This document shows positions 1,930 through 41,796 of a stretch of 41,796 bases of DNA, piece after piece. Both the position numbers and the translations under genes were made by a program. Source of the stretch: a virus; the IMG/VR virus record IMGVR_UViG_3300037585_003009, positions 1 through 41,796 of that record; one strand, written 5' to 3'. Below the pieces are notes generated by a model that ran no database searches, was not told the DNA's origin, and was given only the letters and a program-made list of their open reading frames with translations. Each line of letters begins with the position of its first letter. The first letter of the stretch is position 1.

Positions 1930-2222
1930 AAGAAACTGGACTAAAAGACAGAAACGGTTTAATGATACACGAAGGAAATTTTGTAAGCCTTGACGGAAAC
2001 ATGACTGCTGACAACTCTATGGGATTTTTGCCTAATGGATGGACATTTGATAAAGATGATGTTTACGAGGTATATTTTGATGAAACAATACAAAACTGGT
2101 CTTTGAAATTAGATGTAAAACCTGACAACGCTTACAACGTGAAATACATGAATCACGCTGTTTCATTATTGCATGATGAATCAGTAGAAATAGTTGATAA
2201 ACCAAAGAACTATCCAACTTAA
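1926..2222 (+). CDS. YopX-like protein
   Basis: This 98-aa protein opens with GLKDRNGLMIHEGNFV, the pattern of YopX-family phage proteins (DKNG.. I.EGD.V), and ends with a short strand-rich segment. YopX proteins are small beta-rich proteins widespread in phages; their function is not established. The ATG overlaps the upstream stop (ATGA). Last gene of the operon, followed by the first cassette-like spacer. Confidence 0.65.
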   Translation: MKETGLKDRNGLMIHEGNFVSLDGNMTADNSMGFLPNGWTFDKDDVYEVYFDETIQNWSLKLDVKPDNAYNVKYMNHAVSLLHDESVEIVDKPKNYPT

Positions 2223-2227
2223 TAAGG

Positions 2228-2299
2228 GTAGTTTACTTAGTAGCTGATGACATGGGGATAAAGCTAAAAGAAGACGAAGGTATAACGTTTAATTGGTAA
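2228..2299 (+). pseudogene. Possible 3' remnant of a lost gene
   Basis: An open stretch ends in a TAA at 2297 and reads LVADDMGIKLKEDEGITFNW. It has no plausible start, and the stop lies inside an attC-like element, just as full cassette genes end at such elements. It may be the tail of a truncated cassette gene. The segment is short, so chance cannot be excluded. Confidence 0.3.
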
Positions 2300-2355
2300 C
2301 GGTTTGGCTATGAGCCGTATGAGGTACGAATATGGGTTATTCATTGTGTTATAGC
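2280..2355 (+). repeat. attC-like imperfect inverted repeat 1
   Basis: Outer arms TATAAC (2281-2286) and GTTATA face each other, and a second inner pair TAAC/GTTA lies within. This is the R''-L''-L'-R' layout of integron recombination sites with the conserved AAC and GTT triplets outermost. It sits between a gene remnant and the gene at 2378. Pairing is weak compared with the copies at 2676 and 4106. Confidence 0.4.
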
Positions 2356-2377
2356 CAGTTATTTTAAAAATTAAATT

Positions 2378-2674
2378 ATGAAAGCAGAAAGAATAGAGTG
2401 TTTATCTGAAATACTTGAGGAAATTGGGGTTAAAGCCACAAGTGAGCAAATAAAACAAATAGCAGAAGATTATGCACTACACTTAGAAATGGAAAGTGAA
2501 ATTTCTTCTTACCAATTTATAGGTGGAAGTTCTAAGTGTGAAAAATGTGAGCGACTTGAAAAAGAGATTAATCAAAAAGAAAGCGAAATTTTAATATACC
2601 AAAATAGTATTAAGAAACGTAGAAACGCAGAGCGTGTTTGGCTAGAGGGAGATGCTGTAATGTATGAACGTTAA
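2378..2674 (+). CDS. Hypothetical protein in cassette-like context
   Basis: A 98-aa protein with an N-terminal helical part, a CxxC pair near residue 56-59 (CEKCERL) and a C-terminal stretch of heptad-like Glu/Lys/Ile that suggests a coiled coil. It lies alone between two attC-like hairpins, the arrangement of an integron gene cassette. Function unknown. Confidence 0.7.
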   Translation: MKAERIECLSEILEEIGVKATSEQIKQIAEDYALHLEMESEISSYQFIGGSSKCEKCERLEKEINQKESEILIYQNSIKKRRNAERVWLEGDAVMYER

Positions 2675-2675
2675 T

Positions 2676-2731
2676 TGGCTATAACGAGGTCGTGTAACAG
2701 GTCGTTTTAATGCCTGTTACATATTGTTAGC
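2676..2731 (+). repeat. attC-like inverted repeat 2
   Basis: The inner arms TGTAACAGG (2693-2701) and CCTGTTACA (2713-2721) are perfectly complementary over 9 bp around an 11-base loop. The outer arms are GCTATAAC (2677-2684) and GTTAGC (2726-2731). The unpaired bases between inner and outer arms are unequal on the two sides (about 8 and 4), as in real attC sites. It begins two bases after the stop codon at 2674. Confidence 0.55.
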
Positions 2732-2766
2732 TACTGTAAGCGGATTAATAAACTAAAATTTAAAAT

Positions 2767-2973
2767 ATGACACCAAAAGAAAAAGCAGAGGAATTGTACA
2801 ACATATTTGATATGATAATATACTCTGACCAAGACGAACACGACCAATGTAAAAGATGTGCTATAAGATGTGCAGAACAAGTTATAAATACATACGATTT
2901 GGAAGGGTATGACGAAGAAGATAGCAAGATGGAATATTGGCAACAAGTAAAGCAAGAGATTAGCTTATTGTAG
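2767..2973 (+). CDS. Hypothetical small protein in cassette-like context
   Basis: A 68-aa acidic helical protein with CxxC and a further cysteine (CKRCAIRC). Similar short proteins with a QCKRCA..CAEQVI core are, from memory, frequent in Bacteroidota mobile regions, but no function is known. Its stop codon overlaps the recurrent end sequence that starts GCTAACAA. Confidence 0.7.
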   Translation: MTPKEKAEELYNIFDMIIYSDQDEHDQCKRCAIRCAEQVINTYDLEGYDEEDSKMEYWQQVKQEISLL

Positions 2974-3007
2974 CTAACAAGCGAATAAAACACACTAACC
3001 GATTTAT
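2973..3007 (+). repeat. Recurrent cassette-end sequence, copy 1
   Basis: The sequence GCTAACAA-CGAATAAAACAC followed by ACTAACCGATTTA recurs, with small changes, at 4674, 7320 and 9694. Each copy directly follows the last small gene or structured segment of a cassette-like block, and normal phage genes resume after it. Confidence 0.65.
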
Positions 3008-3009
3008 CA

Positions 3010-3648
3010 ATGAATAAAAACAATCCTAAGTGTAGAAATTGTAAGGAGAGATTTAATAAAACTGATCCGAAAAATCCGTATTGCAAAAAGAAAGAGTGTC
3101 AGAAAGTTCATCGGGACATAGTTAACGAAAAGTTGTATCAAAAAGCTATGAAGAACCTGAACAAAATCAAGAGCGAAAACAAAATTTGGAAACAACAACT
3201 AAACGAAGAGAAAGCCAAAAAGAAAGACAGAAATACACTATCTAACTTAAAAATAAATGTCAGAACAGTGTGCCACGAATATATAAGACTAAGAGACAAA
3301 GGGAAAGCTTGTGTAAGTTGTGATAAAGAGTGGGATTCGTCCTTTCAGGCTGGACATTTATACAAAGCTGAGTTATACAGTCTTTTGAGGTATGATGAGC
3401 GCAACGTGCATGGACAATGCCAAGGCTGCAATATCTACAAGGATGGAAACGAAAGCAGCTACCACTTAAACATACTTTCTAGGATCAGTCAAGAGGATTA
3501 CAACGATATAAAAGAGATAGCCGCACAAGAGAAGAAAACTAATTTTAAATGGGATCGCGAAGAACTCAACAAAATTAGGGAGTACTACAAGCAGAAGATA
3601 AAAAACCACTCATCATCACAATTAACCGACCATCACAATAACAAGTAA
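3010..3648 (+). CDS. ninG: NinG/Rap-type recombination protein
   Basis: A 212-aa NinG family protein (lambda NinG/Rap), which acts on branched recombination intermediates. Two metal-binding clusters are visible. The N-terminal one has C8, C11, C25 and C30. The second is HNH/zinc-finger-like with CVSC (101-104), GH (115-116) and NVHGQCQGCN (132-141). A long basic helix links them. Length and order agree with the family. The last residues, about 199-212, are rich in His, Ser and Asn because they are encoded by the operator repeats of promoter P2, so this tail is probably not part of the ancestral fold. It partners functionally with the annealing protein candidate at 5360. Confidence 0.9.
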   Translation: MNKNNPKCRNCKERFNKTDPKNPYCKKKECQKVHRDIVNEKLYQKAMKNLNKIKSENKIWKQQLNEEKAKKKDRNTLSNLKINVRTVCHEYIRLRDKGKACVSCDKEWDSSFQAGHLYKAELYSLLRYDERNVHGQCQGCNIYKDGNESSYHLNILSRISQEDYNDIKEIAAQEKKTNFKWDREELNKIREYYKQKIKNHSSSQLTDHHNNK

Positions 3649-3674
3649 ACAACAAAACACTATAATTACCTTTC
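3605..3674 (+). promoter_or_regulatory. Tandem-repeat promoter P2, inside ninG end
   Basis: Repeats ACCACTCATCA (3605) and ACCGACCATCA (3625) are 20 bp apart, and TACCTTTC (3667-3674) lies at the fixed distance of 42 bp. The last base of the -7 box deviates from G. The repeats lie within the ninG coding sequence. This is the weakest member of the set by sequence but exact by spacing. Confidence 0.6.
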
Positions 3675-3677
3675 ACT

Positions 3678-3887
3678 ATGGACAAAAAGAAACAAATAAA
3701 AGCAAAGAAAAGTACTAATACAATGTCTCTATTTATGGTGACAGGATACGGAGTATTGATAGTATTTTTTCTCTTGTACTACAAATACCCTAAAATACTT
3801 CCTGTGTTGTCTTGTACGTTTATTATTTACCTTGTTGTAAGTACCGTGCTAGCATTAAGGGCGGTTAGAGCTTTGAGGGATGTATAA
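3678..3887 (+). CDS. Small two-helix membrane protein
   Basis: A 69-aa protein with a very basic N terminus and two hydrophobic segments, about residues 17-35 and 41-60, so an inner-membrane protein. The first ATG at 3678 is only 3 bases after the -7 box of P2, where transcription would not yet have begun. The in-frame ATG at 3723 (residue 16) is the likelier start for transcripts from P2. Function unknown. Confidence 0.65.
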   Translation: MDKKKQIKAKKSTNTMSLFMVTGYGVLIVFFLLYYKYPKILPVLSCTFIIYLVVSTVLALRAVRALRDV

Positions 3888-4093
3888 TGAACAAGAATAA
3901 ATACAGTAGCGATATGAAAGAAGATATTATAGTAGTATTAGAACAATTCAAATACGATAATTACAGCATTGACCAAGCAGCGGAAGAGATATTGGATTTA
4001 TTTAATGTTAGCGAATCGTTGCCGAGCGATATTGAAGTAGGTAAGGCAATGAGTGAGTTAAGTGAAATAGCCGATAAGGAATCAGAAAGATAA
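3887..4093 (+). CDS. Small acidic hypothetical protein
   Basis: A 68-aa acidic, helical protein whose ATG overlaps the upstream stop by one base (TAATG), which indicates coupled translation. No domain recognised. An attC-like hairpin begins 12 bases after its stop. Confidence 0.7.
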   Translation: MNKNKYSSDMKEDIIVVLEQFKYDNYSIDQAAEEILDLFNVSESLPSDIEVGKAMSELSEIADKESER

Positions 4094-4105
4094 ACAGCTA
4101 TTTTT

Positions 4106-4199
4106 GCTAACGTTTTCTGTATGGCTAGTAAGCTTACAACACTAAATTAAATTATTAACCAATGCACTTGATGCTTATTAGCTATACAGTGTGTTATAA
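4106..4199 (+). repeat. attC-like inverted repeat 3 (best example)
   Basis: The arms 4117-4133 and 4173-4189 pair over 17 positions with two G-T mismatches, around a loop of 39 bases. They are bordered outside by GCTAAC (4106-4111) and GTTATAA (4193-4199). The AAC and GTT triplets are the most conserved bases of integron attC sites, and total length (about 94 bp) is in the usual range. It lies between the stop at 4093 and the start at 4210. Confidence 0.6.
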
Positions 4200-4209
4200 A
4201 ATGTGAATT

Positions 4210-4527
4210 ATGGGAGTATTTGGAATGAGTGTAGGTTCTTATTATGAACCAGAAAAAGGGCTACCTAACCCAAAGCCAAACAACTATACAATAGTAAGAA
4301 GTGAAAGTATTAACGGTAAATTGGTTATTGAAATAAAATATCACGACTGTATAAACTACGAGGGTAGAAAAATAATGGTTTTCGATTGTTCATTAGCAGA
4401 TTTGAAAGAACAAAAGTTAATAGACCCTCATTTTTGTGATAATAAAGAATATTATTCACCTGTAGCAAGATTTGAACCTACGGATAAAGGTTGGTCTAAT
4501 GCTTGTTTTATGGCGAATGTTTTATAA
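4210..4527 (+). CDS. Cassette-type hypothetical protein
   Basis: A 105-aa soluble protein opening MGVFGMSVGSYYEPEKG, with DCINYEGRKIMVF in the middle and a C-terminal ARFEPTDKGW. From memory this resembles an uncharacterised family met in Bacteroidota integron-type cassettes. It follows an attC-like site and stands alone. Function unknown. Confidence 0.7.
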   Translation: MGVFGMSVGSYYEPEKGLPNPKPNNYTIVRSESINGKLVIEIKYHDCINYEGRKIMVFDCSLADLKEQKLIDPHFCDNKEYYSPVARFEPTDKGWSNACFMANVL

Positions 4528-4572
4528 TGCTAAATGTAAAAAGCGTTTTAATGATTTTTAAATAATGTTATT

Positions 4573-4680
4573 GTTAGTGTGTGGCGTAAATCGCCTACGG
4601 TCTTTGAACCGAATACCTGTAATGGGTAGCAATGAGGTGGAATTCCCGAATGTAGGTGTAGCCACATATTAACTCTAACA
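4573..4680 (+). ncRNA. Candidate structured RNA or geneless cassette
   Basis: The 284-base stretch 4528-4811 holds no gene. Within it, GTTAG (4573-4577) and CTAAC (4675-4679) enclose TGTGGC (4580-4585) paired with GCCACA (4661-4666). Inside this closing stem are small hairpins GCG/CGC, CGGT/ACCG and TACC/GGTA. The result looks like a branched fold and is richer in G and C than its surroundings. No promoter is evident and it is not a tRNA: no T-loop TTC motif is present. It runs into the cassette-end sequence. Confidence 0.35.
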
Positions 4681-4709
4681 ACCAAATAAAACACATTAAA
4701 CGATTTAGT
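4674..4709 (+). repeat. Recurrent cassette-end sequence, copy 2
   Basis: CTAACAACCAAATAAAACAC followed by ATTAAACGATTTA, matching the copies at 2973, 7320 and 9694. It is followed 12 bases later by the first repeat of promoter P3. Confidence 0.65.
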
Positions 4710-4720
4710 ACACTAAATTA

Positions 4721-4790
4721 ACCACTCATCATTAATATCTACCGCTTATCACTTTACTCATTATTAACAGGGTAAAGTGATTTATATTTG
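4721..4790 (+). promoter_or_regulatory. Tandem-repeat promoter P3
   Basis: Repeats ACCACTCATCA (4721) and ACCGCTTATCA (4741) are 20 bp apart, with TATATTTG at 4783-4790, 42 bp after the second. There is no TTTG at the -33 position. It drives the gene at 4812, whose leader ends in CAAAGTAATT before the ATG. Confidence 0.8.
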
Positions 4791-4811
4791 ATGCAAACAA
4801 ACAAAGTAATT

Positions 4812-5111
4812 ATGATAACAGAACTAACATTAAAAGAAAACAACGAGTACGAGATAGATGTTTTCAACTCTGAGTATGAAGTACTTTTCACGGTAGAAGG
4901 GTATGCAGAAATAGAAGCAACAGGTATTACTTTTTGTGTTATCTCAAAAACTACAGATTCATACGGTGAAACATTAGTCAATTTTGCAACTAAAGAATGG
5001 GTTATCTCAGTATTAGAAAATAACAATGAAATAAAGGACAGGATGGAGTCTTTAAACGTAACTATTAACCAATCAACTTTGAATTTTTATGAGTTACACG
5101 GAAAGCTTTAA
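4812..5111 (+). CDS. Hypothetical early protein
   Basis: A 99-aa acidic protein. I start it at the ATG at 4812: upstream in-frame starts at 4788 and 4791 overlap or touch the -7 box of P3, so they cannot be on the transcript, and 4812 has the typical AAAGTAATT leader. It begins MITELTLKENNEYEIDVF and appears strand-rich. First gene of the operon 4812-6171. Function unknown. Confidence 0.75.
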   Translation: MITELTLKENNEYEIDVFNSEYEVLFTVEGYAEIEATGITFCVISKTTDSYGETLVNFATKEWVISVLENNNEIKDRMESLNVTINQSTLNFYELHGKL

Positions 5112-5370
5112 TATAGATCAAGAGCGCAAAGCATACGAGTACGCACACGCTCAACCAGAGATCATGAAGTACGATATACTTCTAAAAGTTTACGGTTTTA
5201 CAATTAATCAATGGGACGCAATGACAGAACGCTACAGCAATAGTAAAGTAGTGCGTAAAGGTCGCTGTATTTCATTCGAAGGAACACAACAAGACTTTGA
5301 TAGTCTGTACGACCGATTAAACAGGGATCAATCAAAATGTAAAATAATAGGAGTATATAATGGAAAGTAA
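5089..5370 (+). CDS. Hypothetical protein
   Basis: A 93-aa protein overlapping the previous gene by 23 bases and the next by 11, which implies translational coupling. Its N-terminal half is helical and aromatic-rich. No domain recognised. It directly precedes the annealing protein candidate. Confidence 0.7.
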   Translation: MSYTESFNIDQERKAYEYAHAQPEIMKYDILLKVYGFTINQWDAMTERYSNSKVVRKGRCISFEGTQQDFDSLYDRLNRDQSKCKIIGVYNGK

Positions 5371-6004
5371 TAATTTAACATTGTGGAATTCGGTTGAAGA
5401 AACTGACCCAAATCACACAAAACAAGTAACCTTTGGTAATAAATTTACAAGCATTAACGCTACTTATCAAATTAAAAACGCTACCGAGAAGTTCGGAACG
5501 TATGGCGATAAATGGGGAATCAAATCAATAGATTATGAGTTTATTGACGTTGTAGATAATCAAGTAATGGTTTTAGCTAAGGCAATTTTTAAATACCCTT
5601 TAAATGGTGTTGACGTAACTTTTCCAATAAGCTCTACGATATTTATGCAGGAGTATTCTAAAAAGTGGAAATGTGTACAAGCTGATGACGAATGGGCAAA
5701 GAAGATTGAGACAGACATTACTACAAAAGCTCTATCTAAACTAGGGTTTAACGCTGATGTATTTATGGGTATGTACGATGATAACAAGTACATTAACAAC
5801 CTTAAAGAAAAATACAAGGACACACCACCACCAAAACCACTACCGCCAATTGACGACGAAAAGTTCGGTAAGTACTGCGATTGGATCAAGGATGCTATTA
5901 CAGATAAGAAGGGTAATTTAATTGATATAGATTACTTAAAAGCTCGTCACACCTTAAACGATGAGCAAGAGCAAGAATTAGCGAATGTAAACACAACAAC
6001 ATGA
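5360..6004 (+). CDS. Single-strand annealing protein candidate (DUF1071/Rad52-like)
   Basis: A 214-aa protein. SINATYQIKNATEKFGTYGDKW (about residues 31-52) followed by the downstream stretch ending DITTKALSKLGFNADVFMG is the pattern I associate with phage annealing proteins of the DUF1071/Sak3 type with a Rad52-like fold. Such proteins pair complementary single strands in phage recombination and replication. The C-terminal third has a PPPKPLPP linker and a polar helical tail. Its place in the early region near NinG, with an SSB-like gene elsewhere, fits a recombination set. The assignment rests on motif memory, not on a search. Confidence 0.6.
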   Translation: MESNNLTLWNSVEETDPNHTKQVTFGNKFTSINATYQIKNATEKFGTYGDKWGIKSIDYEFIDVVDNQVMVLAKAIFKYPLNGVDVTFPISSTIFMQEYSKKWKCVQADDEWAKKIETDITTKALSKLGFNADVFMGMYDDNKYINNLKEKYKDTPPPKPLPPIDDEKFGKYCDWIKDAITDKKGNLIDIDYLKARHTLNDEQEQELANVNTTT

Positions 6005-6171
6005 CACTACACCAAAAAACATTTAAAAACGTAGAAGACTGGAATGATTTCGTAAAGACTCAGCTAAACAGAAACGGAAAGAGAATCATACTTGTATCCG
6101 TGTTAAAAACAGAAGATAAAAGCATAATATTAACGAGCTTGGAGTTTTTCTATTATGTGCAGAATGGATAG
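6001..6171 (+). CDS. Small hypothetical protein (56 aa)
   Basis: A short open frame whose ATG overlaps the stop of the annealing-protein gene as ATGA. It reads from MTLHQKTFKNVEDWNDF to EFFYYVQNG. The coupling and coding-like composition support it as real. No domain recognised. Confidence 0.6.
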   Translation: MTLHQKTFKNVEDWNDFVKTQLNRNGKRIILVSVLKTEDKSIILTSLEFFYYVQNG

Positions 6172-6193
6172 TACGGATTAAAAACGAATTATT

Positions 6194-6388
6194 ATGAATA
6201 AATATATGTACTGGATTAAACAATTATTTAAAAAAGAAGAAACTACCAAGCAATGTGATATACATTTTGGCAGGAAATCATTTCCTTTAAGAGAGGGAAA
6301 AACGAAAAGTAATATTAAGAAATATAATGGACTAGGCAGACAAGCACCTCCACCTCCACCTGTACGGAATATTAAAAACAAAACTTAA
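6194..6388 (+). CDS. Small basic protein with polyproline tract
   Basis: A 64-aa lysine-rich protein with an amphipathic N terminus and a run of six prolines (about residues 51-57, APPPPPV). It follows the 56-aa gene by 22 bases and precedes the next by five. Function unknown. Confidence 0.55.
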   Translation: MNKYMYWIKQLFKKEETTKQCDIHFGRKSFPLREGKTKSNIKKYNGLGRQAPPPPPVRNIKNKT

Positions 6389-6393
6389 ATAAA

Positions 6394-6585
6394 ATGAAAA
6401 TAATTTGGAGAGATACAGAGTTGAAAACACATACGATTGACTTAACAAACGCAGTTGATGTCAAAATTGATGGTGTAGCAGTAACCTTAAATGAAGGTAA
6501 GGGAATACGAGTTAGTACAGACAACAGAATAGTAGTTATGCCTATGGCTGCAAATGCTGTAATGATAAAAGAATCTGAAAATTAG
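6394..6585 (+). CDS. Small beta-rich hypothetical protein
   Basis: A 63-aa protein predicted to be mostly beta strands, opening MKIIWRDTELKTHTIDL. Last gene before a block of very small genes separated by GCTAACG-type spacers. Function unknown. Confidence 0.65.
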   Translation: MKIIWRDTELKTHTIDLTNAVDVKIDGVAVTLNEGKGIRVSTDNRIVVMPMAANAVMIKESEN

Positions 6586-6596
6586 TATTGGTGCTA

Positions 6597-6613
6597 ACGT
6601 TTTGTATAAAACG
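6597..6613 (+). repeat. Truncated attC-like spacer
   Basis: The spacer after the stop at 6585 contains GCTAACGTTTTGTATAAAACG, in which CGTTTT and AAAACG form a short hairpin. The GCTAACG start matches the opening of attC-like site 3, but the long arms are missing. Confidence 0.35.
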
Positions 6614-6620
6614 AATAATT

Positions 6621-6764
6621 ATGGATAATTTACCAAAAGAATTAAAAGAAAAATTAGAAAAGTTTGCAAAGCAAAGAGCTAATGAAGTAGAAGATGTTAG
6701 TATAGACGAGTTTATACAATGCGTATTAGATGGTGCGTTGTGGATGTACTCTAATGCCACATAA
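6621..6764 (+). CDS. Very small hypothetical protein (47 aa)
   Basis: Reads MDNLPKELKEKLEKFAKQ at the start and ends ALWMYSNAT. Strongly helical and charged at the N terminus. It stands between two attC-like spacers. Similar short proteins are common in integron-type cassettes. Function unknown. Confidence 0.6.
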   Translation: MDNLPKELKEKLEKFAKQRANEVEDVSIDEFIQCVLDGALWMYSNAT

Positions 6765-6785
6765 TGATCTGTGTAAAATTACGTT

Positions 6786-6846
6786 GTGTAGTGCAACGAA
6801 ACAATGAATTTTAAACCTTGTTAGCGTTTCGTTTTGAGCGTTGGCA
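6786..6846 (+). repeat. attC-like inverted repeat 4
   Basis: AACGAAAC (6795-6802) pairs perfectly with GTTTCGTT (6826-6833) around a 23-base loop. GTTGGC at 6840-6845 forms the outer right arm; the left outer arm is degenerate. It separates two tiny genes, as expected for a cassette junction. Confidence 0.4.
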
Positions 6847-6861
6847 GTAAAAGATAATAAG

Positions 6862-7020
6862 ATGAAAGTAAGTGTTGAATTTACCAAAAAGGAATTAGAG
6901 TTATTGAAGAAAGCATTATTGTTTGGAATTACTCATAATGAAAACAATAAAGAGGCGAATGAGATGAACAAGATTGATGCAAAACTAAATTTATTGTGTG
7001 CGTTGGCAAATGAACGCTAA
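6862..7020 (+). CDS. Very small hypothetical protein (52 aa)
   Basis: Reads MKVSVEFTKKELELLKKALL at the start and ends LCALANER. It is helical, and its stop codon lies in the next GCTAACGG spacer, as in cassette genes that run into their attC. Function unknown. Confidence 0.6.
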   Translation: MKVSVEFTKKELELLKKALLFGITHNENNKEANEMNKIDAKLNLLCALANER

Positions 7021-7050
7021 CGGTAATGGTATAACTGTAGTTGCGTGGAA
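7015..7050 (+). repeat. Degenerate attC-like spacer
   Basis: GCTAACGGTAATGGTATAAC and the following GTAGTTGCG resemble shortened attC arms, with AAC and GTT at the outer positions. Pairing is poor. It lies between the stop at 7020 and the start at 7078. Confidence 0.3.
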
Positions 7051-7077
7051 TTATGAACGAATTAAACAAATAAAGAA

Positions 7078-7314
7078 ATGAGTTTTAAAAAACAATTTAA
7101 AGAAAAACTAATTAAGGAAGATGCTTGGATTAGTTTAACAAACGAACAAAGAGAAAGTATTATAAATTTAGGTGAACAGCAATTGCAGTTATACCTTGTT
7201 AGCTACCGAAGGGAACTGTTAGAAAATTTTGCTGATTGGATGGATGAGAATGTGAATTTTGATGGCATAAGGCAAAATGAGATAGACTCTTATTTAGATA
7301 CAAAAATTTTGTAA
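7078..7314 (+). CDS. Hypothetical protein, last of cassette-like block
   Basis: A 78-aa acidic helical protein opening MSFKKQFKEKLIKEDAWISL. It ends six bases before the recurrent cassette-end sequence. Function unknown. Confidence 0.7.
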   Translation: MSFKKQFKEKLIKEDAWISLTNEQRESIINLGEQQLQLYLVSYRRELLENFADWMDENVNFDGIRQNEIDSYLDTKIL

Positions 7315-7319
7315 TTGTA

Positions 7320-7348
7320 GCTAACAACTAAATAAAACACACCAACCA
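7320..7348 (+). repeat. Recurrent cassette-end sequence, copy 3
   Basis: GCTAACAACTAAATAAAACAC followed by ACCAACCACTC. The right half runs directly into the first operator repeat of promoter P4, where other copies read ACTAACCGATTTA. Confidence 0.65.
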
Positions 7349-7414
7349 CTCATCAACATATACTACCGTTCATCACATTATCACAGATAAAACAAAATAG
7401 GTTGAGTATATTTG
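7345..7414 (+). promoter_or_regulatory. Tandem-repeat promoter P4
   Basis: Repeats ACCACTCATCA (7345) and ACCGTTCATCA (7365) are 20 bp apart, with TATATTTG at 7407-7414, 42 bp after the second. It drives the structured transcript 7420-7872. Unlike most other copies it lacks the AAAGTAA leader directly before an ATG. Confidence 0.8.
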
Positions 7415-7597
7415 AAGTGTCGGTTAAAGACAGGCGCACCCAAACGAGGGGCGTAGATTGAAATATTGACAGATAGCAAAACAAATCGCCAGTGTAGTCT
7501 AGAAATGCCGTGAAAATCGGGGCGATTAAGTTGGAGCTTGACTCCTATAATTCCAATGCACGCTTTTGCAGTTGAAGTTTTCGCACGGTCGTAGTAA

Positions 7598-7798
7598 ATG
7601 TTGAATCATTCCGACCCTTCAGGCGCGTTAGAAATGTTAGTGCAAAACTGTGGCTATCTGTCAATTGAAATAAGAAACGGAGTTTGGTATTCGAGGAGTA
7701 AACTAACATTATTAACTGAATGCGTTAAGCTAGGAGTAAGTGAAGGATTGAGTAGCCGAATCGCTCCGTTTCTTTTTGAAAATATTGGTACAAGGTAG
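7598..7798 (+). CDS. Possible 66-aa protein inside the structured transcript
   Basis: Open frame from ATG at 7598 (alternative ATG at 7634) to TAG at 7796. The protein would have one tryptophan, two cysteines and a helical C terminus with no recognised domain. The start region overlaps the 3' edge of the structured segment, so translation could be controlled by folding. It could also be a chance frame in an RNA gene. Confidence 0.45.
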   Translation: MLNHSDPSGALEMLVQNCGYLSIEIRNGVWYSRSKLTLLTECVKLGVSEGLSSRIAPFLFENIGTR

Positions 7799-7835
7799 CC
7801 ATCAAATACCTTATTGAATAGTGGTTGGTTAGGTT

Positions 7836-7872
7836 ATCCGCAGGTGTTTTTTAATGTCTGCGGATTTTTTTT
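7836..7872 (+). terminator. Rho-independent terminator
   Basis: ATCCGCAG (7836-7843) pairs perfectly with CTGCGGAT (7858-7865) across a 14-base loop and is followed by a run of eight T. It ends the transcript from P4 immediately before promoter P5. Confidence 0.9.
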
Positions 7873-7942
7873 ACCACTCATCATTGATATTAACCACTCA
7901 TCACAATAACCAGAAATACTTGGTAGCTGTGTATTATATTTG
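7873..7942 (+). promoter_or_regulatory. Tandem-repeat promoter P5
   Basis: Repeats ACCACTCATCA at 7873 and 7893, 20 bp apart, with TATATTTG at 7935-7942, 42 bp after the second. It directly follows a terminator, so it must start a new transcript. The leader AACAAAAAAGTAATT leads into the ATG at 7958. Confidence 0.85.
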
Positions 7943-7957
7943 AACAAAAAAGTAATT

Positions 7958-8119
7958 ATGACAGAACCAACAGAACAAGCAATCAAAGACGCTCACTTTT
8001 TCGCTAATGAACAAGGAGTTGAATTCGTAATATTAGACGATTTGAGCTACTGGCCAGACCACTGGATCGAACGCAACCCAAGTGCGGCCGATAGGATTAT
8101 TTACTCAACTTTAGATTAA
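7958..8119 (+). CDS. Small acidic protein (53 aa)
   Basis: Reads MTEPTEQAIKDAHFFANEQG and ends RIIYSTLD. It is the first gene behind promoter P5, preceded by the typical AAAGTAATT leader, which supports it in spite of its size. Function unknown. Confidence 0.75.
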   Translation: MTEPTEQAIKDAHFFANEQGVEFVILDDLSYWPDHWIERNPSAADRIIYSTLD

Positions 8120-8167
8120 ACAACACCAAATGAGAATTAAATAAAACACTTAAAACTTAAATAAGAC

Positions 8168-8317
8168 ATGAGTAAAGAAGAAATGAACAAACTACGACAA
8201 ATACAAATCCTACTAAAAGATTTGGGGTATAAGAATATAGCATTAGGGTGGGAAGAAAACCCCTTTGAAACACAAATAAAACTAACAGCAAGTAAACAAA
8301 TCAAGAGACATGAGTAG
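8168..8317 (+). CDS. Small hypothetical protein (49 aa)
   Basis: Reads MSKEEMNKLRQIQILLKDLG and ends KQIKRHE. The next gene starts inside its end (8-base overlap), consistent with a coupled operon from P5. Function unknown. Confidence 0.65.
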   Translation: MSKEEMNKLRQIQILLKDLGYKNIALGWEENPFETQIKLTASKQIKRHE

Positions 8318-8585
8318 AGAACAAACACCGATTTCGCCATTGTCAATTGCAACAAAGTCCGTGTACGGCTTATATGATAGCTTAACGGATGCGCAGGAAA
8401 TAATTGATATTTCAAAAGACATTCAAAGATTAGTTAAAATTAAAGTACAGGAAGCTCTTAGTCCAATAATTGAAGAATGTAAAACAGTTATTGATAATCC
8501 TAATCAATTAGAAACTACAAAAGGATTCGCGTCTATGATTTGGTATGAGCTACAAAACGCGCACCAAACAAATAACTATGAATAA
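8310..8585 (+). CDS. Hypothetical protein
   Basis: A 91-aa mostly helical protein opening MSREQTPISPLSIATKSVYG. It overlaps both neighbours by 8 bases. Function unknown. Confidence 0.7.
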   Translation: MSREQTPISPLSIATKSVYGLYDSLTDAQEIIDISKDIQRLVKIKVQEALSPIIEECKTVIDNPNQLETTKGFASMIWYELQNAHQTNNYE

Positions 8586-8871
8586 AAGAAAGAAAGAAAT
8601 ACACGTAATAACAAATGCAGGATGCGCACAGTTTCCTAAAGATTCTATTCACCCTCTACAAATAGATGAAGAGGGCATAAGATGGACAATAAACGGAGTA
8701 AACAGCATACACCCAAGCGTAGACAGTAAGAAGGTATATTCTGAAAGGGTGCAGGGTAAAATGTGTAGGTTGTGCGGTAATATGTTCAATTACAACGGTG
8801 CAAAAGCATTTCGAGAAGGTAAGTGTTCAAGATGTTACAAAAGACTTACCAAGACAGTTAGTGAGGGATAA
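8578..8871 (+). CDS. Zinc-ribbon-like hypothetical protein
   Basis: A 97-aa protein. I take the ATG at 8578, which overlaps the upstream stop, rather than 8545. The C-terminal half carries CRLCGNMF and, 17 residues on, CSRCYKR: two CxxC pairs that probably bind zinc. It may bind nucleic acid, but nothing more specific is visible. A degenerate TAACG spacer follows. Confidence 0.65.
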   Translation: MNKRKKEIHVITNAGCAQFPKDSIHPLQIDEEGIRWTINGVNSIHPSVDSKKVYSERVQGKMCRLCGNMFNYNGAKAFREGKCSRCYKRLTKTVSEG

Positions 8872-8912
8872 CGCTCTGGGTATGGAGTGGTTTTTTACGG
8901 ATTTTAAAATGA

Positions 8913-9410
8913 ATGATTATGATTACTAGAAAGCAAATAGAGGAAATATTAGATGACACTTTAGAAGGAGATAACCCACCAGATTCAGCACCTACTGTTG
9001 TTGGTAAAGAGGAATGTGTAAATAGACTTATGGAGTTAGTAAAAAACTGCTCTATACCTGTTGTTAGCCAACAACGTGAACTGTTAGCTTTTAGGAAATG
9101 GCAAAAAGATAATTGGAAAGATGTCTACTTGTACAGCGATGATTTTATGATTAGTGAATTTTTTATAAAAATGAAAATAGATTTAGAACAAGCGTTAAAC
9201 CACCCTTTATGGATGGAACACGAGAGAAATAAAAGTCTTTACCAAATGGATGGTAAGAGAGATAAATGGGAAATAGTGTATTACCCAATATTTCAAGATG
9301 GTAAAACACAAGAATATTATGACGAACCGAGAGCGTTAATGCAAAACATTGATAAGGGTGGCTTTTGGAGCAAAGAAGTCCCTTTAAGGTACTTGGTTAA
9401 AATTAATTAA
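8913..9410 (+). CDS. Hypothetical protein
   Basis: A 165-aa soluble protein opening MIMITRKQIEEILDDTLEG. The stretch QQRELLAFRKWQKDNW is followed by YLYSDDFMISEFF, a pattern seen in uncharacterised cassette or phage proteins of Bacteroidota. The upstream spacer holds TAACGCTCTGGGTATGGAG, a possible attC remnant. Function unknown. Confidence 0.7.
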   Translation: MIMITRKQIEEILDDTLEGDNPPDSAPTVVGKEECVNRLMELVKNCSIPVVSQQRELLAFRKWQKDNWKDVYLYSDDFMISEFFIKMKIDLEQALNHPLWMEHERNKSLYQMDGKRDKWEIVYYPIFQDGKTQEYYDEPRALMQNIDKGGFWSKEVPLRYLVKIN

Positions 9411-9443
9411 CCATAATGGACAAGAATAAAAAACTTAACGATT

Positions 9444-9698
9444 ATGAAAGATAAACTTAGAAAGTTAGCAGAAGATTACACAGTAAGCACAGAAGCTGCA
9501 CAAGCACTCTACAATGAGTTATGTGTTTTATTTAGTGTTAGCAATAGTGCATTGATTGACTATATTGAAAATGAAGCTGAAATAGCTATGCCAATAAATG
9601 AATTAATGCACGAAGACGGCAGACACCTAACAAAAAAGGAATATGGCAAAGTGCTTCTTAAATACTTGGTAAAAGAACTGAGGGAGCATTATTGCTAA
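9444..9698 (+). CDS. Hypothetical protein, last of cassette-like block
   Basis: An 84-aa acidic helical protein opening MKDKLRKLAEDYTVSTEAAQ. Its stop codon is embedded in the recurrent end sequence GCTAACAACC. Function unknown. Confidence 0.7.
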   Translation: MKDKLRKLAEDYTVSTEAAQALYNELCVLFSVSNSALIDYIENEAEIAMPINELMHEDGRHLTKKEYGKVLLKYLVKELREHYC

Positions 9699-9727
9699 CA
9701 ACCAAATAAAAAACACTAACCGATTTA
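9694..9727 (+). repeat. Recurrent cassette-end sequence, copy 4
   Basis: GCTAACAACCAAATAAAAAACACTAACCG then ATTTA, nearly the same as the copies at 2973 and 4674. It overlaps the stop codon of the preceding gene. Confidence 0.65.
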
Positions 9728-9742
9728 GCAAAACAGATAAAG

Positions 9743-9991: not shown

Positions 9992-10258
9992 ATGAAAGGG
10001 GAAACAATGGAGCGATCAAAAGACTACATAGAAATTGAAAAGCGAAGACAAAGATTAGAGGAAGCATTAAGTACATCAAAAGCTTTTAGCGAAGCTGTAT
10101 TAACGGCTAGAAAAAAAGATGAATTGCCCAATAATCCAATATACAGAATGGCTAATCCAGACAGTTTAATATTAAGAGGATCACTTGATACATTAATCGG
10201 TCTTTTTGCCTACTCATATTTAGAGCAATTGATTGAAGCTCATAAACAAAATAAGTAA
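9992..10258 (+). CDS. Hypothetical protein upstream of terminase
   Basis: An 88-aa protein, helical and highly charged in the first half. The ATG at 10007 is an alternative start. It ends three bases before the small terminase gene. Function unknown; the position suggests a role in packaging or late control. Confidence 0.65.
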   Translation: MKGETMERSKDYIEIEKRRQRLEEALSTSKAFSEAVLTARKKDELPNNPIYRMANPDSLILRGSLDTLIGLFAYSYLEQLIEAHKQNK

Positions 10259-10261
10259 ACA

Positions 10262-10762
10262 ATGGCAGCACCAAAAGGAAACCAATACTGGAAAAAACGC
10301 AGTAAGCACGGAAGAGATAAAATAATAAAAAGCCCTGAAGCTTTAGCAGAATCATCTGACGAATACTTTCAGTGGTGCGTAGATAATCCAGTAATACAAA
10401 CAGAGTGGAAAGGTAAACCACTAGAACTAGTAGAAACACCTCACCCAAGAGCGTTCAAAAAAAACGAATTAGCTAGATTTTGTGGTGTTGCTCAATGGCG
10501 AACATTAGAAGAGTTGTGCGGTAAAAAAGACGAAGAACAAACACAAATACAAAAAGATTTTTCGCAAGTTCTTACACGTATAGAGGGGATTATAGCCGAT
10601 ATGAAGTACACGTACGCAGTAGTTGGTATGTTTAATTCTACTATTGTGGCTCGTGATTTATCACTAAAAGACAGACACGACCACACAACAGACGACGACA
10701 AGTTAGACAACAATGTGACTTTCGAAATTATACGATCCAATGAATGTAAGGACGACAAATAA
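10262..10762 (+). CDS. terS: Terminase small subunit (DNA-packaging protein, gp3-like)
   Basis: A 166-aa protein opening MAAPKGNQYWKKRSKHGR, the start typical of gp3-type DNA-packaging proteins. Next come P..AF..NELARFCGV, a likely DNA-binding helical part, and a helical middle (FSQVLTRIEGIIADMKY) suited to ring assembly. It would recognise phage DNA and load the large subunit. It overlaps the large terminase gene by 23 bases. Identification rests on this start, on size and on position. Confidence 0.8.
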   Translation: MAAPKGNQYWKKRSKHGRDKIIKSPEALAESSDEYFQWCVDNPVIQTEWKGKPLELVETPHPRAFKKNELARFCGVAQWRTLEELCGKKDEEQTQIQKDFSQVLTRIEGIIADMKYTYAVVGMFNSTIVARDLSLKDRHDHTTDDDKLDNNVTFEIIRSNECKDDK

Positions 10763-11984
10763 TTTTGAATTCCTACTTGATAATTTTAATAAGTATCGAG
10801 GTATAGGTTTGCCTGGCGGTACAAGGTCTGCAAAGTCAATTAGTGCGATGCAGTTTATAGGGCTAAAATGCTTTGAAAGCAAAGGAAAAGAGATAATTAT
10901 AGGACGAGACACTTTAGCCAACCTAAAGAAAACTACACTAAATGATTTTAAAGCGGTCTGCTACGGTCAAAAAGGAATAGACCCGCTATACCCTAAGCTA
11001 AGGATTTACGACGAACACAGCAACCCTAGATGTGAGATAAACGGGAATCTAATAAACTTCTTTGGTTTAAATGATGACATAATGCGTACTCATGGTATGG
11101 ATAGTGATATATTTTACCTGAATGAAGCTGTAGCGATTAACAAATATTGCTATAACCAACTTAACCAAAGATGCAGAGAGGGTTACATACTTGATTGGAA
11201 TCCATCAGAACCAAATTCATGGTGCTATGAATTAGAGTCGCGGGAAGATGTTATTTTCAATTATTCATCATACCTCGACAATCCTTTTTTAAGTAAAGCA
11301 ATTGTTGATGAAATCGAAGCCTATTGCCCCTGGAACTTTGATGATCTACACCTACCAGAAGAAGAGAGAAGACCAAACGAGACAAATATAAGCCGTAAAA
11401 CAGCAGATAAAAAAATGTGGACAGTTTACGGAAAGGGTGAAATTCACAGAGGTAAAGAAATAATATTCCCTGAGTGGAAGATATACAAAGATGCACCAGA
11501 AAGTTATGACTACAAGTTTTATGGGTTAGATTGGGGTTGGAATGATCCTTTAGCCTTTATGGAAATAACAATAGTAGGGAATAAGCTTTACATCAAAGAG
11601 TTGCTATACGGGAGCGAAATAAAACCAGAAACATACATACCAGTTATACTAGATCAGCCACTGTTAAAAAGTCAAAAGGTGTATTTAGTATGTGACAATT
11701 CAGAGCCTAAAAGTATAACCGAGTTAAGAAGTAAAAATATTTCTGCGGTAGGAGCTAAGAAACCTAAAGGCTCAATTATGGACGGCATAAACCAGCTAAA
11801 CAGGTATCAAATATTTATACACGAGGATAGCTACAACTGTCAAAGAGAAGCGAATACGTACAAATACAAGGTAGACAGTAAAACGGGGTTAGTTTTGGAT
11901 GTGCCAATAGATAAAAATAATCATTGTTGGGACGCGGTACGCTACCCTGTACAAATGTTCTTAGACAACAAAACCCTAAAGTAA
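10740..11984 (+). CDS. terL: Terminase large subunit
   Basis: A 414-aa packaging motor with ATPase and nuclease domains. The Walker A loop is GGTRSAKS (residues 26-33). Walker B with the catalytic glutamate is DIFYLNEA (123-130). The RNase H-like nuclease shows its acidic residues at D264 (YGLDWGWNDP), D319 (VCDNSEP) and D398 (HCWDAVRY). Length and motif order match PBSX/Terminase_3-type large subunits. It cuts concatemers and pumps DNA into proheads docked on the portal encoded next. The end overlap of the window would fit headful or terminal-repeat packaging, but the type cannot be read directly. Confidence 0.95.
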   Translation: MNVRTTNNFEFLLDNFNKYRGIGLPGGTRSAKSISAMQFIGLKCFESKGKEIIIGRDTLANLKKTTLNDFKAVCYGQKGIDPLYPKLRIYDEHSNPRCEINGNLINFFGLNDDIMRTHGMDSDIFYLNEAVAINKYCYNQLNQRCREGYILDWNPSEPNSWCYELESREDVIFNYSSYLDNPFLSKAIVDEIEAYCPWNFDDLHLPEEERRPNETNISRKTADKKMWTVYGKGEIHRGKEIIFPEWKIYKDAPESYDYKFYGLDWGWNDPLAFMEITIVGNKLYIKELLYGSEIKPETYIPVILDQPLLKSQKVYLVCDNSEPKSITELRSKNISAVGAKKPKGSIMDGINQLNRYQIFIHEDSYNCQREANTYKYKVDSKTGLVLDVPIDKNNHCWDAVRYPVQMFLDNKTLK

Positions 11985-12091
11985 TACACATAAATGATAA
12001 CCTACACGGAGTCAAGTATGCAAAAAGTGTGTAATTGATAAGAATCTAAACAACATGATGACGTTTTTTTAATCATATACAAAAAAATTTG

Positions 12092-12099
12092 TACTTTTG
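12092..12099 (+). promoter_or_regulatory. Possible late promoter -7 box before portal
   Basis: The 133-base gap between terL and the portal gene contains TACTTTTG, which fits TANNTTTG, behind a T-rich and A-rich stretch. No -33 TTTG is present. It is the only gap in the head operon long enough for a promoter. Confidence 0.4.
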
Positions 12100-12117
12100 A
12101 TTTCAAACGTTTGGTAA

Positions 12118-13383
12118 ATGGCAAACTTCATTACGAAGGTAATAGATAAATCAATTGACAGAATTGCGCGTAAATCGCAGTCTATAAACTTCTACCCAGC
12201 AAATAAGAAAGTGTTTAGCCTTTTTGGTGGTGTTCTTAGTAATAGAGAGTATGCCGACCTAGAAACATTGATCAAATATTTTGAGTGCCACCCGTTAGTG
12301 TTTGAGGTAATAGACAACGTTTCCCAAAATGTAAGTCACATACCTTTAAAGATTACAACATCCAGAGACAGTGAAAAAGCTTTAGCGAACTCACGAATTT
12401 TAGAGATGTTACCAGCAGATATTCGTTATCAAGTAGTAGCTTCAATTGAATCATGTGGCAATGCGTTTCTTTATTTCCGTAAAGGTATCGGAATGGGTGA
12501 AGAAGTGGAATTCTGGTATGCCCCAAACGTAACTATAACAACATCAACAGTAACAGGAGAAGTTACGAAATACTGTTATTACGATGAGCATACTGGCACT
12601 TACGATGTACAGGGCGAGGATTTACAATACGTTCTACATTTAAAAAACCCGCAAATATCACAACATTATTGTGTTGATCTAGGTTTTTCGAAGTTGCAGG
12701 GGATGATGGATGTAGTAGAAAGCTCTAAGGAAAAATTTATAGCTGAGAAATCTATCTTTAAAAATAAAGGCGTTTCTGGGTTAATTGTATCAAAGACAGA
12801 TATTCCACTACTTGAGCCAGACAGAAAAGCACAGCAAGCAGATTTTGATGAACGAATAGGAGGGGCACAAAAGTTTGGAGGTGTGGCATTAACGTCTAAC
12901 GATGTTAATTTTCTACCTATTGGGATGAGTCCAACAGATTTAAAAATGTTGGAAGGTATAGTGTCAGATTTGCGCAGACTATGTTCAGCGTATAATTTAA
13001 GCTCGGTACTATTTAACGATGTTGCTAACTCGAAGTTTGACAACATGGAGGAAGCAGAAAAACAGGCTTATATAAACTGCTACATACCAACAGCCGAGAA
13101 AATATATCCCAAGATATTTGAATGGCTTAGTGAGCTACTAAATATTGACGAAATACCAAACGTAGACAAAACGAAAATCGAGGTGATTAAGTCAAGTACT
13201 AATGTAGTTGCAATGGCTTTGAAAGATTTTGATATACAAGTACAAAGAGATTTAGTTAGCCAAATGACCACAGACGAAGCGAGAGAGCTTTTAACACTTG
13301 GAGCGTTACCACAAGGTCAAACGGTAATAGGTAAGAACGGAAACACGCAAAGCAATGGAGAAGGAAGTGAAGAAGGGAATTGA
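12118..13383 (+). CDS. Portal protein (HK97 family)
   Basis: A 421-aa protein that forms the dodecameric ring at the capsid vertex through which DNA enters. The N-terminal part has the HPLVFEVIDNVSQNVSHIPL helix (about residues 59-78), and the GNAFLYFRKG strand and the NLSSVLFND segment are typical of HK97-type portals. The C terminus is a low-complexity Asn/Gly/Glu tail. It lies between terL and the protease/capsid genes, as expected. Confidence 0.9.
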   Translation: MANFITKVIDKSIDRIARKSQSINFYPANKKVFSLFGGVLSNREYADLETLIKYFECHPLVFEVIDNVSQNVSHIPLKITTSRDSEKALANSRILEMLPADIRYQVVASIESCGNAFLYFRKGIGMGEEVEFWYAPNVTITTSTVTGEVTKYCYYDEHTGTYDVQGEDLQYVLHLKNPQISQHYCVDLGFSKLQGMMDVVESSKEKFIAEKSIFKNKGVSGLIVSKTDIPLLEPDRKAQQADFDERIGGAQKFGGVALTSNDVNFLPIGMSPTDLKMLEGIVSDLRRLCSAYNLSSVLFNDVANSKFDNMEEAEKQAYINCYIPTAEKIYPKIFEWLSELLNIDEIPNVDKTKIEVIKSSTNVVAMALKDFDIQVQRDLVSQMTTDEARELLTLGALPQGQTVIGKNGNTQSNGEGSEEGN

Positions 13384-27984: not shown

Positions 27985-28979
27985 TGAAAGATATAACAAT
28001 ATCGGGCAATTCATTAGTGATAACAGACACAGTTACAAGCATAATCGAATTAGAAGTACCCGCAAAAGATTTCTATTTTAGTAATAGACACTTAAACGAA
28101 AATATTCTGAACGTGTATGATACGCACGGAATTAATGAAAGTATTGCTACTGAATGGAAGGGCAATATATCAGATGTAACTATTGACGGAGTCGCTGCAA
28201 CTGCAAGCACTTTGCGAACTTTTCAACAGGATCATCTGGGAAAGTCTAGCACCTCGGGAGGTAACGGGGTGAACTCAGTAACGGGTGACGGAGTAGGAGG
28301 AACAGCGAGTGATCCAGTTCTAACATTTCCAACACCAGCAGAAATTGGAGCAAAAGCAGATTTCACAGAGAATTCAGCATTTAATAAAGACTTTGGAACA
28401 GGTTCTGCGGACGTTTTGAGAGGTGATACAACGACAATAACACCAGCGCAAATTTCAGATATTACAACAAATAATTCAAAAGTGTCTTTTCCAGAAGCTC
28501 CCGCAGATGGTAATCAATACGCAAGAAAAGATAATTCTTGGGAACAGGTGTCAAGCGGTTCGGGCGATATGGAAAAGAGCGTATATGATCCTAATAACGT
28601 TGATGATAATGCTTTTGATTATGCTAATTTTTTAGGTGATTTTCAAGTAAAAGGTGGCAGGACGACTATAACGCTGAACAGTGATCAAGATAACCTAGAT
28701 TTAGATGGTTTTAACATTGTTTATCTAACAGCTCCCTCAAATATGCGTAGAATAACAGGAATAAAAGCCCCACCTTCTGGTGTTGAGAGAATCATTATTT
28801 TTGTAAATAACGACTCAAACAGAGTTAAAACGTTTGTAGCAAATAGCGGAAGCAGTTTAGCAGCAAATAGAATAGTTTTAAGGGGTAACGCAGGTCAAAA
28901 AAATTTAGATGATTATTTAATCGCTCTATGTATGTACAATCATACTATTAATAAATGGCAATTTACACGAATGCAATGA
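27984..28979 (+). CDS. Tail fibre protein A
   Basis: A 331-aa fibre. The N-terminal part holds ISGNSLVITDTVTSI, a Gly/Ser linker and a NSVTGDGVGG motif. The middle has the repeat-like PADGNQYARKDNSWEQV found in many phage fibres. The C-terminal ~135 residues (from about 195) are closely related to the protein at 31033: shared YDPNNV.DDAFDY.NFLG, RRITGI.APP.GV.R and AANRIVLRG. The C-terminal domain is therefore probably the receptor-binding tip. Confidence 0.75.
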   Translation: MKDITISGNSLVITDTVTSIIELEVPAKDFYFSNRHLNENILNVYDTHGINESIATEWKGNISDVTIDGVAATASTLRTFQQDHLGKSSTSGGNGVNSVTGDGVGGTASDPVLTFPTPAEIGAKADFTENSAFNKDFGTGSADVLRGDTTTITPAQISDITTNNSKVSFPEAPADGNQYARKDNSWEQVSSGSGDMEKSVYDPNNVDDNAFDYANFLGDFQVKGGRTTITLNSDQDNLDLDGFNIVYLTAPSNMRRITGIKAPPSGVERIIIFVNNDSNRVKTFVANSGSSLAANRIVLRGNAGQKNLDDYLIALCMYNHTINKWQFTRMQ

Positions 28980-29365
28980 GAAATTTTTACAAAAATTCAG
29001 AACAACCGATACCTGCAATAGCTTTTGAAAATTCACCTCCAAATGGATACGTATTAATCACTGATCCAGAGGTTAGGATGAGCCATTGGAAAGCTAAATA
29101 TAGAGAAAGAAAAGAGGACGGACAAAGATATTACACTGAAACACAAGCAGCACTTTACATTGATTTATTAAATGGAATATATACTGGTTTAGAGGTTTTT
29201 GAATTTGAAGAACACACTTCAAAATTAGCGGATCAAATATTTAAAGGGGATTGGTTGACGGCTCAAGAAACGTGTAACAACTTGGCGACTAGCGGTATTT
29301 TTGACACTGTAAAAAAAGCAGAAATACAGACAGAGATAGATACTTATGTAACTAATAATTATTAA
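28976..29365 (+). CDS. Fibre accessory protein A
   Basis: A 129-aa protein. I start it at 28976 (ATGA overlap with fibre A), because its paralogue at 31581 begins at the equivalent MR.FY. They share EDGQRYY.E.Q..LYI, LADQIFKGDWLTAQ and TSGIFD with the paralogue. Each copy directly follows a related fibre tip, which suggests a dedicated chaperone or attachment partner. Confidence 0.7.
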   Translation: MRNFYKNSEQPIPAIAFENSPPNGYVLITDPEVRMSHWKAKYRERKEDGQRYYTETQAALYIDLLNGIYTGLEVFEFEEHTSKLADQIFKGDWLTAQETCNNLATSGIFDTVKKAEIQTEIDTYVTNNY

Positions 29366-31578: not shown

Positions 31579-31580
31579 AA

Positions 31581-41362: not shown

Positions 41363-41572
41363 ATGAAGGAGACAATAACAATAGCGCAAGACATAGTTAT
41401 AGAATATAATTGTGAAGAAGGTAGAATGAACGCAATTGAAGCAGTGAAAAAAGACACTAATTGGGTTGCATTTTCAGAAGGTTATTTATCAGGTGAATCT
41501 GTAAAATACAGCTGTTGTAAAACAGCTAATATCAGAGTTATTTCAACAGCAAAACACACACAAAGTAAATAG
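41363..41572 (+). CDS. Small hypothetical protein (complete copy)
   Basis: A 69-aa protein opening MKETITIAQDIVIEYNCEEG, with SCCKTANIRVI near the end. The window's first 199 bases hold a second, partial copy. The gene forms the left flank of the variable locus that carries either a methyltransferase or a 55-aa zinc protein. Confidence 0.8.
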   Translation: MKETITIAQDIVIEYNCEEGRMNAIEAVKKDTNWVAFSEGYLSGESVKYSCCKTANIRVISTAKHTQSK

Positions 41573-41574
41573 AT

Positions 41575-41792: not shown

Positions 41793-41796
41793 AGAA

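Follow-up and report, generated by a model that had tools for sequence, protein, structure and literature searches.

Single-gene cassettes with attC-type sites in a phage genome, and their linkage to a tyrosine recombinase family without the IntI-specific insertion

We found attC-type sites and small single genes, arranged like the gene cassettes of integrons, in a phage genome, IMG/VR virus record IMGVR_UViG_3300037585_003009. The whole record (41,796 bases) was analyzed and is called the window here. We think it probable, at roughly 70%, that the early region of this phage is made of blocks of single-gene cassettes that are exchanged by a tyrosine recombinase acting in trans, most likely a member of an IntI-like family without the insertion that is specific to the integron integrase IntI. 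We call the recombinases of this family patchless.

In the mechanism that we propose, each cassette in these blocks would be one gene plus one attC-type site. The sites would act as folded single strands in which the outer AAC and GTT boxes pair and an inner stem with fixed mismatches sets the strand polarity. A recombinase supplied in trans, most likely from the patchless family of Bacteroidota and some of their phages, would cut at the GTT box, and whole cassettes would be inserted or exchanged at CTAAC ends. The window's own sites may still be active. In phages that carry the enzyme, the array immediately precedes the recombinase gene and shares its strand, and new cassettes would therefore enter at the recombinase-side end of the operon.

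attC-type sites, their covariation and their polarity

We searched for sites with two models. Model R1 was trained on 17 loop-trimmed sites from viral contigs and one contig of a metagenome-assembled genome, none of them from the window. Model R2 was trained on 61 sites, including one from Maribacter phage Panino. The training loci were found through the leader and the 3' end of the window cassette with the gene at 6862, and thus have no bearing on the independence of the scores for sites A and B, whereas for site C they are not independent (Table 1). The R2 score of site C is not independent because the Panino site used for training is a near-copy of 6760-6826.

R1 matched site B (4106-4199) with 45.5 bits and site A with 26 bits (E 1.5e-4). 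The best match in 357 kb around canonical intI genes, a measure of R1 noise, had 16.9 bits. Both sites had been singled out in a sequence-only reading of the window, site B for arms of 17 bp including two G-T pairs, and site A, then placed at 2676-2731, for perfect inner arms of 9 bp. Both descriptions held; AAC and GTT are outermost in site B, and site A is now modelled at 2680-2732. That reading had proposed an array across 2222-9730 and had set an attC covariance search as the check that could overturn it; the search gave matches at sites A and B with R1, which was trained without the window, and the refuting outcome (no match at any spacer) did not occur. Within the array, sites A and B are supported by R1 and the spacers at 6760-6826 and 4523-4573 by R2, but the other spacers are decayed or unsupported. 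The spacer at 2222-2377 matched neither model, although part of it (2293-2320) shows 93% identity with the left arm of a site that looks intact in a sister phage (L199/L203, described below). Possible cassettes at 8913 and 9444 gave R2 matches of 32.2 and 24.4 bits, but these matches overlap the gene starts, and there is a long insert at 8867-9069. In all, R2 gave three matches in the window that overlap genes. The R2 score at 3883-4013 (19.6 bits) was under the R2 noise at intI loci (22.6 bits).

Folding energy did not single out the sites from shuffled sequences (z of -0.35 for 4103-4201 and -2.8 for 2677-2735). The case for the sites is comparative. A scan for AAC and GTT with complementary arms was also tried as a site detector and was rejected as unspecific; many coding stretches score 15-20, near true sites. 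Rfam gave no match, and plasmids gave none to site B.

The inner stems of these sites covary. Among the 17 sites, 8 of 10 inner-stem pairs have changed on both sides. Over the whole structure there were 47 doubly changed cells compared to 19.2±3.5 in shuffles (covariation score 0.415 vs 0.135; 0 of 500 shuffles). With 61 sites there were 232 such cells compared to 96±8, a count biased towards the structure since the alignment was fitted to it. Two A-T pairs of the outer box are invariant in all 61 sites while the inner stems vary. That is, the structure is conserved while the stem sequence changes, and in sites A and B the outer AAC and GTT boxes stand apart from an imperfect inner stem, as in attC sites.

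R1 found tandem sites in the same direction in many viral contigs and also in bacterial contigs. Their polarity relative to genes is strict. In phages, the flanking open reading frames (ORFs) are opposite to the model strand in 92 of 94 cases; in chromosomes they are on the same strand in 76 of 83. The small single genes between the window sites, as the sequence-only reading had described them, are ORFs on the + strand in every case. The chromosomal order is gene, then CTAACAA...CGTTRGC, in agreement with the aadA1 attC of R100, which has CTAACAA on the gene side and GCGTTAG on the far side. Chromosomal polarity would thus be canonical and phage polarity reversed. This assignment is made from the end motifs because R2 does not detect the aadA1 attC; the two site types therefore differ in sequence. 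Several R2 sites, the best with 45.1 bits, are present in Polaribacter phage P12002L, both within and outside its methyltransferase region, and there too the genes lie on the strand opposite to the model. In P12002L (29-39 kb) and in contig L029 (103-8896), several genes of the cassette arrays resemble DNA methyltransferases or carry that annotation; a role in anti-restriction would fit.

Cassettes behave as units

We found that cassettes behave as units; that is, one gene and one site move together. In the jumbo phage contig L018, a 394-bp unit holding a site, a leader and a gene for 66 amino acids (aa) is present at 8399-8792 and at 11401-11794, and the two copies are 100% identical. The unit starts with ATAACGG and ends with CACCTAAC, its ends are at AAC boxes, and the recombinase start lies about 36 bp beyond copy 2. 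In phage contig L187, sites reach position 9898 and the recombinase start is near 10.13 kb, a gap of about 0.2 kb.

In the lineage of the window, unit-wise exchange is seen at one boundary. The sister phage L199/L203 is 97.8% identical to the window over 10249-13296 (the terminase region). L203 is homologous to the window from about 9689 rightwards and loses homology at CTAAC (9695); the adjoining site and gene on the left are different ones. This position is the start of a block-end motif, CTAACAANYRAATAAAANACA. The motif had been overlooked in the sequence-only reading, and all four of its copies sit immediately 3' of a cassette-type gene or spacer. A search for sister phages through the terminase and exonuclease genes gave two close contigs and otherwise distant ones, so the comparison covers one motif copy and one sister phage; no sister contig spans the other three copies. 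In addition, L006 (609-866) and L018 (7317-7573) share one cassette gene (91% identical); its leader and the site after it differ between the two contigs, and homology stops within about 4 bases of the site box. The integron-type interpretation given by the sequence-only reading is supported by the stem covariation, the tandem arrays, the unit-wise exchange with the sister phage and the members of the site family in P12002L.

The cassettes also have a common frame. A megablast search with the first 24 kb of the window gave a single match: the spacer at 6770-6851 (82 bp, site and leader) is 91.5% identical to a spacer of Panino. The genes that follow this common spacer differ, yet both close in nearly the same stretch. 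With two degenerate positions allowed, the leader of the 6862 cassette was found in 7 viral-contig stretches, one of which (in L008) is not cassette-like. The exact 25-nt leader was absent from 84,980 bacterial and archaeal genomes, and the cassette 3' end was present in only two of them. Twelve of 14 distinct cassettes read in frame into this 3' end and close with -ALANER, and the genes between leader and 3' end are unrelated. Many phage cassette proteins that are not related to each other share this -ALANER ending, for which the cassette end codes.

A recombinase family linked to the sites

No tyrosine recombinase domain was found in a search of the 41,796 bases of the window, in agreement with the earlier statement that no integron integrase is present, and movement of its cassettes therefore needs a recombinase in trans. 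We searched the records behind the site loci for integron integrases and found a recombinase of 267-269 aa in three large phages. The linked recombinases did not reach the cut-off of the integron integrase family TIGR02249 (151, 184 and 197 bits; cut-off 265). Among 396 genomes in a sample of the phylum to which Sunxiuqinia belongs, 85 had relatives, and an alignment with IntI from the same sample showed that the patchless family is without an insertion of about 32 residues. In a tree, 43 of these recombinases were apart from 27 IntI, with modest support at the dividing branch, and the array-linked members were spread through the family.

Regions around patchless recombinases contained R1 sites in 21 of 40 cases and R2 sites (E 0.01) in 28 of 40. 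Canonical intI loci, the expected home of such arrays, had none of this type with either model, and 36 canonical-intI sources (one of them R100) had no R2 site at E 0.01. The recombinase was on the same side of the sites in all 35 matches from 21 regions. The direction of chromosomal ORFs puts it upstream of the cassettes, co-directional in 16 regions and divergent in 5. In nine genomes that were searched whole, chosen for prior matches near the recombinase, sites cluster near the recombinase and also occur elsewhere. One site of this type was about 6 kb from a canonical intI gene (G028:C1 1203836 and 1210334), a single instance among the loci covered.

This site type has its closest link not to canonical IntI but to a recombinase family that lacks the IntI-specific insertion and occurs in bacteria and some phages. 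Based on the linkage, the gene order and the duplicate beside the recombinase gene, we infer that the patchless recombinase is the catalyst. In the sequence-only reading, capture of cassettes would depend on a host enzyme. A host integron need not be involved, since the linked recombinase family is also present in some phages.

The same attC cassettes could be moved instead by the canonical IntI of a host integron, although we consider this unlikely. IntI1 has recombined P12002L_attC2 with attI1 (PMC9892861), P12002L has this site type, and IntI was above cut-off in 105 of the 396 genomes of the phylum sample; the site in G028, close to an intI gene, would also fit. However, no such array was near canonical intI loci, compared to 28 of 40 patchless-recombinase regions, and 14 of 20 genomes with both the recombinase and R1 sites had no IntI match (these are draft genomes and some IntI may be missed). 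It seems more doubtful still that the sites are relics of site-specific recombination long ago and that the cassettes are now moved by homologous-recombination mosaicism. The eroded boxes at 4523 and 6760, the window without a recombinase, and the site and leader that the window shares with Panino ahead of different genes are what relics would look like. But two observations point to recent site-specific events: the perfect duplicate in L018, which ends at the site boxes, and the sharp break at CTAAC between sister phages that are 97.8% identical in the terminase region. Of these two events, only the latter concerns the lineage of the window. We give very little credence to a reading of the spacers as transcription terminators, or as RNA hairpins of another sort, that resemble attC by chance. 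Inverted repeats between genes are common in phages and the simple arm scan gives many similar matches in coding DNA, but against this reading stand the R1 E-value of site B (1.1e-9), the outer-box A-T pairs kept in all 61 sites while inner stems vary, the strict polarity and the linkage to a recombinase family.

Several observations weigh against exchange of the cassettes by a patchless recombinase. The E-values of our models are rough because calibration was short. Many sites are far from any patchless recombinase gene, and several window sites are decayed in a phage that itself has no recombinase. The attC2 of P12002L that was assayed is not matched to a given R2 site, as the coordinates of attC1 and attC2 are absent from the main text of PMC9892861. 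The spacer shared with Panino, followed by a different gene, suggests that homologous recombination also swaps genes inside the frame. As this comparison and the decayed boxes of the window show, decay is at work, probably together with homologous recombination, alongside the site-specific exchange of cassettes that we favor. Beyond the window, we lean slightly towards the view that a second integron-like system exists in Bacteroidota and in their phages, in which patchless recombinases serve attC-type arrays, that is complete (array and recombinase) in some jumbo phages and has a separate phage cassette pool with genes antisense to the site.

The window phage and known cassette systems

Among the genes of the window are those for terminase, portal, tape measure, NinG and exonuclease. 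The record probably covers nearly all of a circular or permuted genome, because its two ends overlap (1-206 is the same as 41374-41579, and 957-1036 the same as 41717-41796). Between these overlaps the ends disagree: a DNA methyltransferase gene (202-963) is swapped in the end copy (41580-41716) for a short ORF with a CxxC-type pattern. The flanks are nearly identical; the difference looks like variation among strains, at a junction that is not of attC type. A repeat, CCACTCATCA, occurs nine times (964, 984, 3606, 4722, 7346, 7874, 7894, 41724 and 41744; 0.02 expected), on the + strand only and within or close to intergenic gaps, and is possibly regulatory. There is also a diverged internal duplication in the structural region (28584-29340 and 31186-31936, DNA identity 67-72%).

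The features of the cassette region are collected in Table 1. The homologues of gene 4210 in phage contigs had no attC-like flank when judged by eye, and this gene alone is therefore no proof of cassette origin. Three genes (window 7017-7203 and 8867-9069, and L197 at about 900-1160) start inside the loop of an attC-like site, such that the 3' arm and the GTTAGC box are coding (VS).

Table 1. Cassette genes, attC-type sites and associated motifs in the window
Feature	Position	Strand	Evidence
Decayed attC-like spacer before gene 2378	2293..2358	-	No R1 or R2 match
Cassette-type gene, 98 aa	2378..2674	+	ORF; ends just before site A; no Pfam family above cut-off
Site A, attC-type	2680..2732	- (model strand; antisense to genes)	R1 26.0 bits, E 1.5e-4; R2 26.4 bits; perfect 9-bp inner arms
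Cassette leader GTTAGCTACTGTAAGCGGATTAATAAACTAAAATT following outer box	2726..2760	+	Stands before another gene in viral contig L022
Cassette-type gene, 68 aa	2767..2973	+	ORF; short match at its start to Flavobacterium phage FL-1
Block-end motif CTAACAANYRAATAAAANACA, copy 1	2974..2994	+	4 copies in window, 0 expected by shuffling
Site B, attC-type, best preserved	4106..4199	-	R1 45.5 bits, E 1.1e-9; R2 56 bits
Cassette-type gene, 105 aa	4210..4527	+	ORF; phage contigs L004 and L005 have homologues
Degenerate attC-type site, outer AAC lost	4523..4573	-	R2 26.8 bits, E 2e-4; no R1 match
Block-end motif CTAACAANYRAATAAAANACA, copy 2	4675..4695	+	Motif and right flank also in viral contig L197
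Cassette-type gene, 47 aa	6621..6764	+	Translation
Site C, attC-type, one outer box eroded	6760..6826	-	R1 14.3 bits; R2 29.4 bits (partly circular)
Cassette leader GTTAGCGTTTCGTTTTGAGCGTTGGCAG	6821..6851	+	Common to viral contigs, ahead of different genes
Cassette gene, 52 aa, ends -ALANER	6862..7020	+	Other gene in same frame in Panino
Cassette 3' end GCGTTGGCAAATGAACGCTAACG	7000..7022	+	Exact copies in 22 viral-contig stretches
attC-like arms around gene 7078 start	7017..7203	-	10-bp perfect inner arms; no model match; energy z -1.6
Cassette-type gene, 78 aa, start inside attC-like loop	7078..7314	+	ORF
Block-end motif CTAACAANYRAATAAAANACA, copy 3	7321..7341	+	4-copy count
attC-like arms around gene 8913 start	8867..9069	-	R2 32.2 bits with very long insert; folding energy not better than that of shuffles
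Cassette-type gene, 165 aa	8913..9410	+	ORF
Weak attC-like match overlapping start of gene 9444	9412..9543	-	R2 24.4 bits; R1 15.5 bits
Cassette-type gene, 84 aa	9444..9698	+	ORF
Block-end motif CTAACAANYRAATAAAANACA, copy 4; homology break with sister phage	9695..9715	+	L203 comparison

Phage-borne attC arrays are not new in kind. Clusters of attC sites in phages have been reported (Qi et al. 2023; PMC9892861), and P12002L already carries this site type. The link between phages and bacterial integrons that the sequence-only reading saw in such arrays is supported, but it is not novel. What is new is the behavior of cassettes as units, the association with patchless recombinases, the antisense polarity in phages and the common -ALANER ending. 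The conserved frame, the changing genes and the common tail bear on the question of how cassettes are made.

With two R1 sites and no tyrosine recombinase, the window is a cluster of attC sites lacking an integron integrase (CALIN: at least two attC sites and no integrase nearby) and not an integron, which has an intI with the IntI-specific insertion, an attI and an array. In this it is like the CALINs described in phages (PMC9892861). P12002L likewise has attC clusters without an integrase in a Bacteroidota phage, genes between the sites, and the R2 site type. In that work, the sites are taken for integron attC that canonical IntI recruits. We found no account in it of the patchless recombinase, of a uniformly inverted polarity, of the block-end motif or of the conserved cassette frame. 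Likewise, we found no description of patchless recombinases with attC arrays in the open-access literature; subscription papers may hold one.

Chromosomal integron arrays are similar in having tandem single-gene cassettes, AAC...GTT sites and a fixed end at which the recombinase lies. Our chromosomal arrays also have two classes of site length (about 50-66 and 127-133 nt), as in chromosomal integrons. In contrast to those systems, the recombinase here is without the IntI-specific insertion and mostly co-directional with the chromosomal cassettes, and the phage genes are antisense to the site polarity. Complete integrons are reported to be rare in the phylum: IntegronFinder 2.0 reports one within Bacteroidetes proper, in Salinibacter (PMC9024848). 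A patchless system would give Bacteroidota phages their own means of swapping accessory genes in such a phylum. By sequence, the phage recombinase matches XerA/XerC-like chains and IntI4 (PDB 2a3v). Unlike IntI, it is under the integron integrase cut-off (151 of 265 bits) and does not have the insertion, about 32 residues long, that the compared IntI sequences contain. This insertion is regarded as essential to integron function (PMC8138268). A recombinase without it, beside attC-type arrays in bacteria and phages, makes that essentiality testable.

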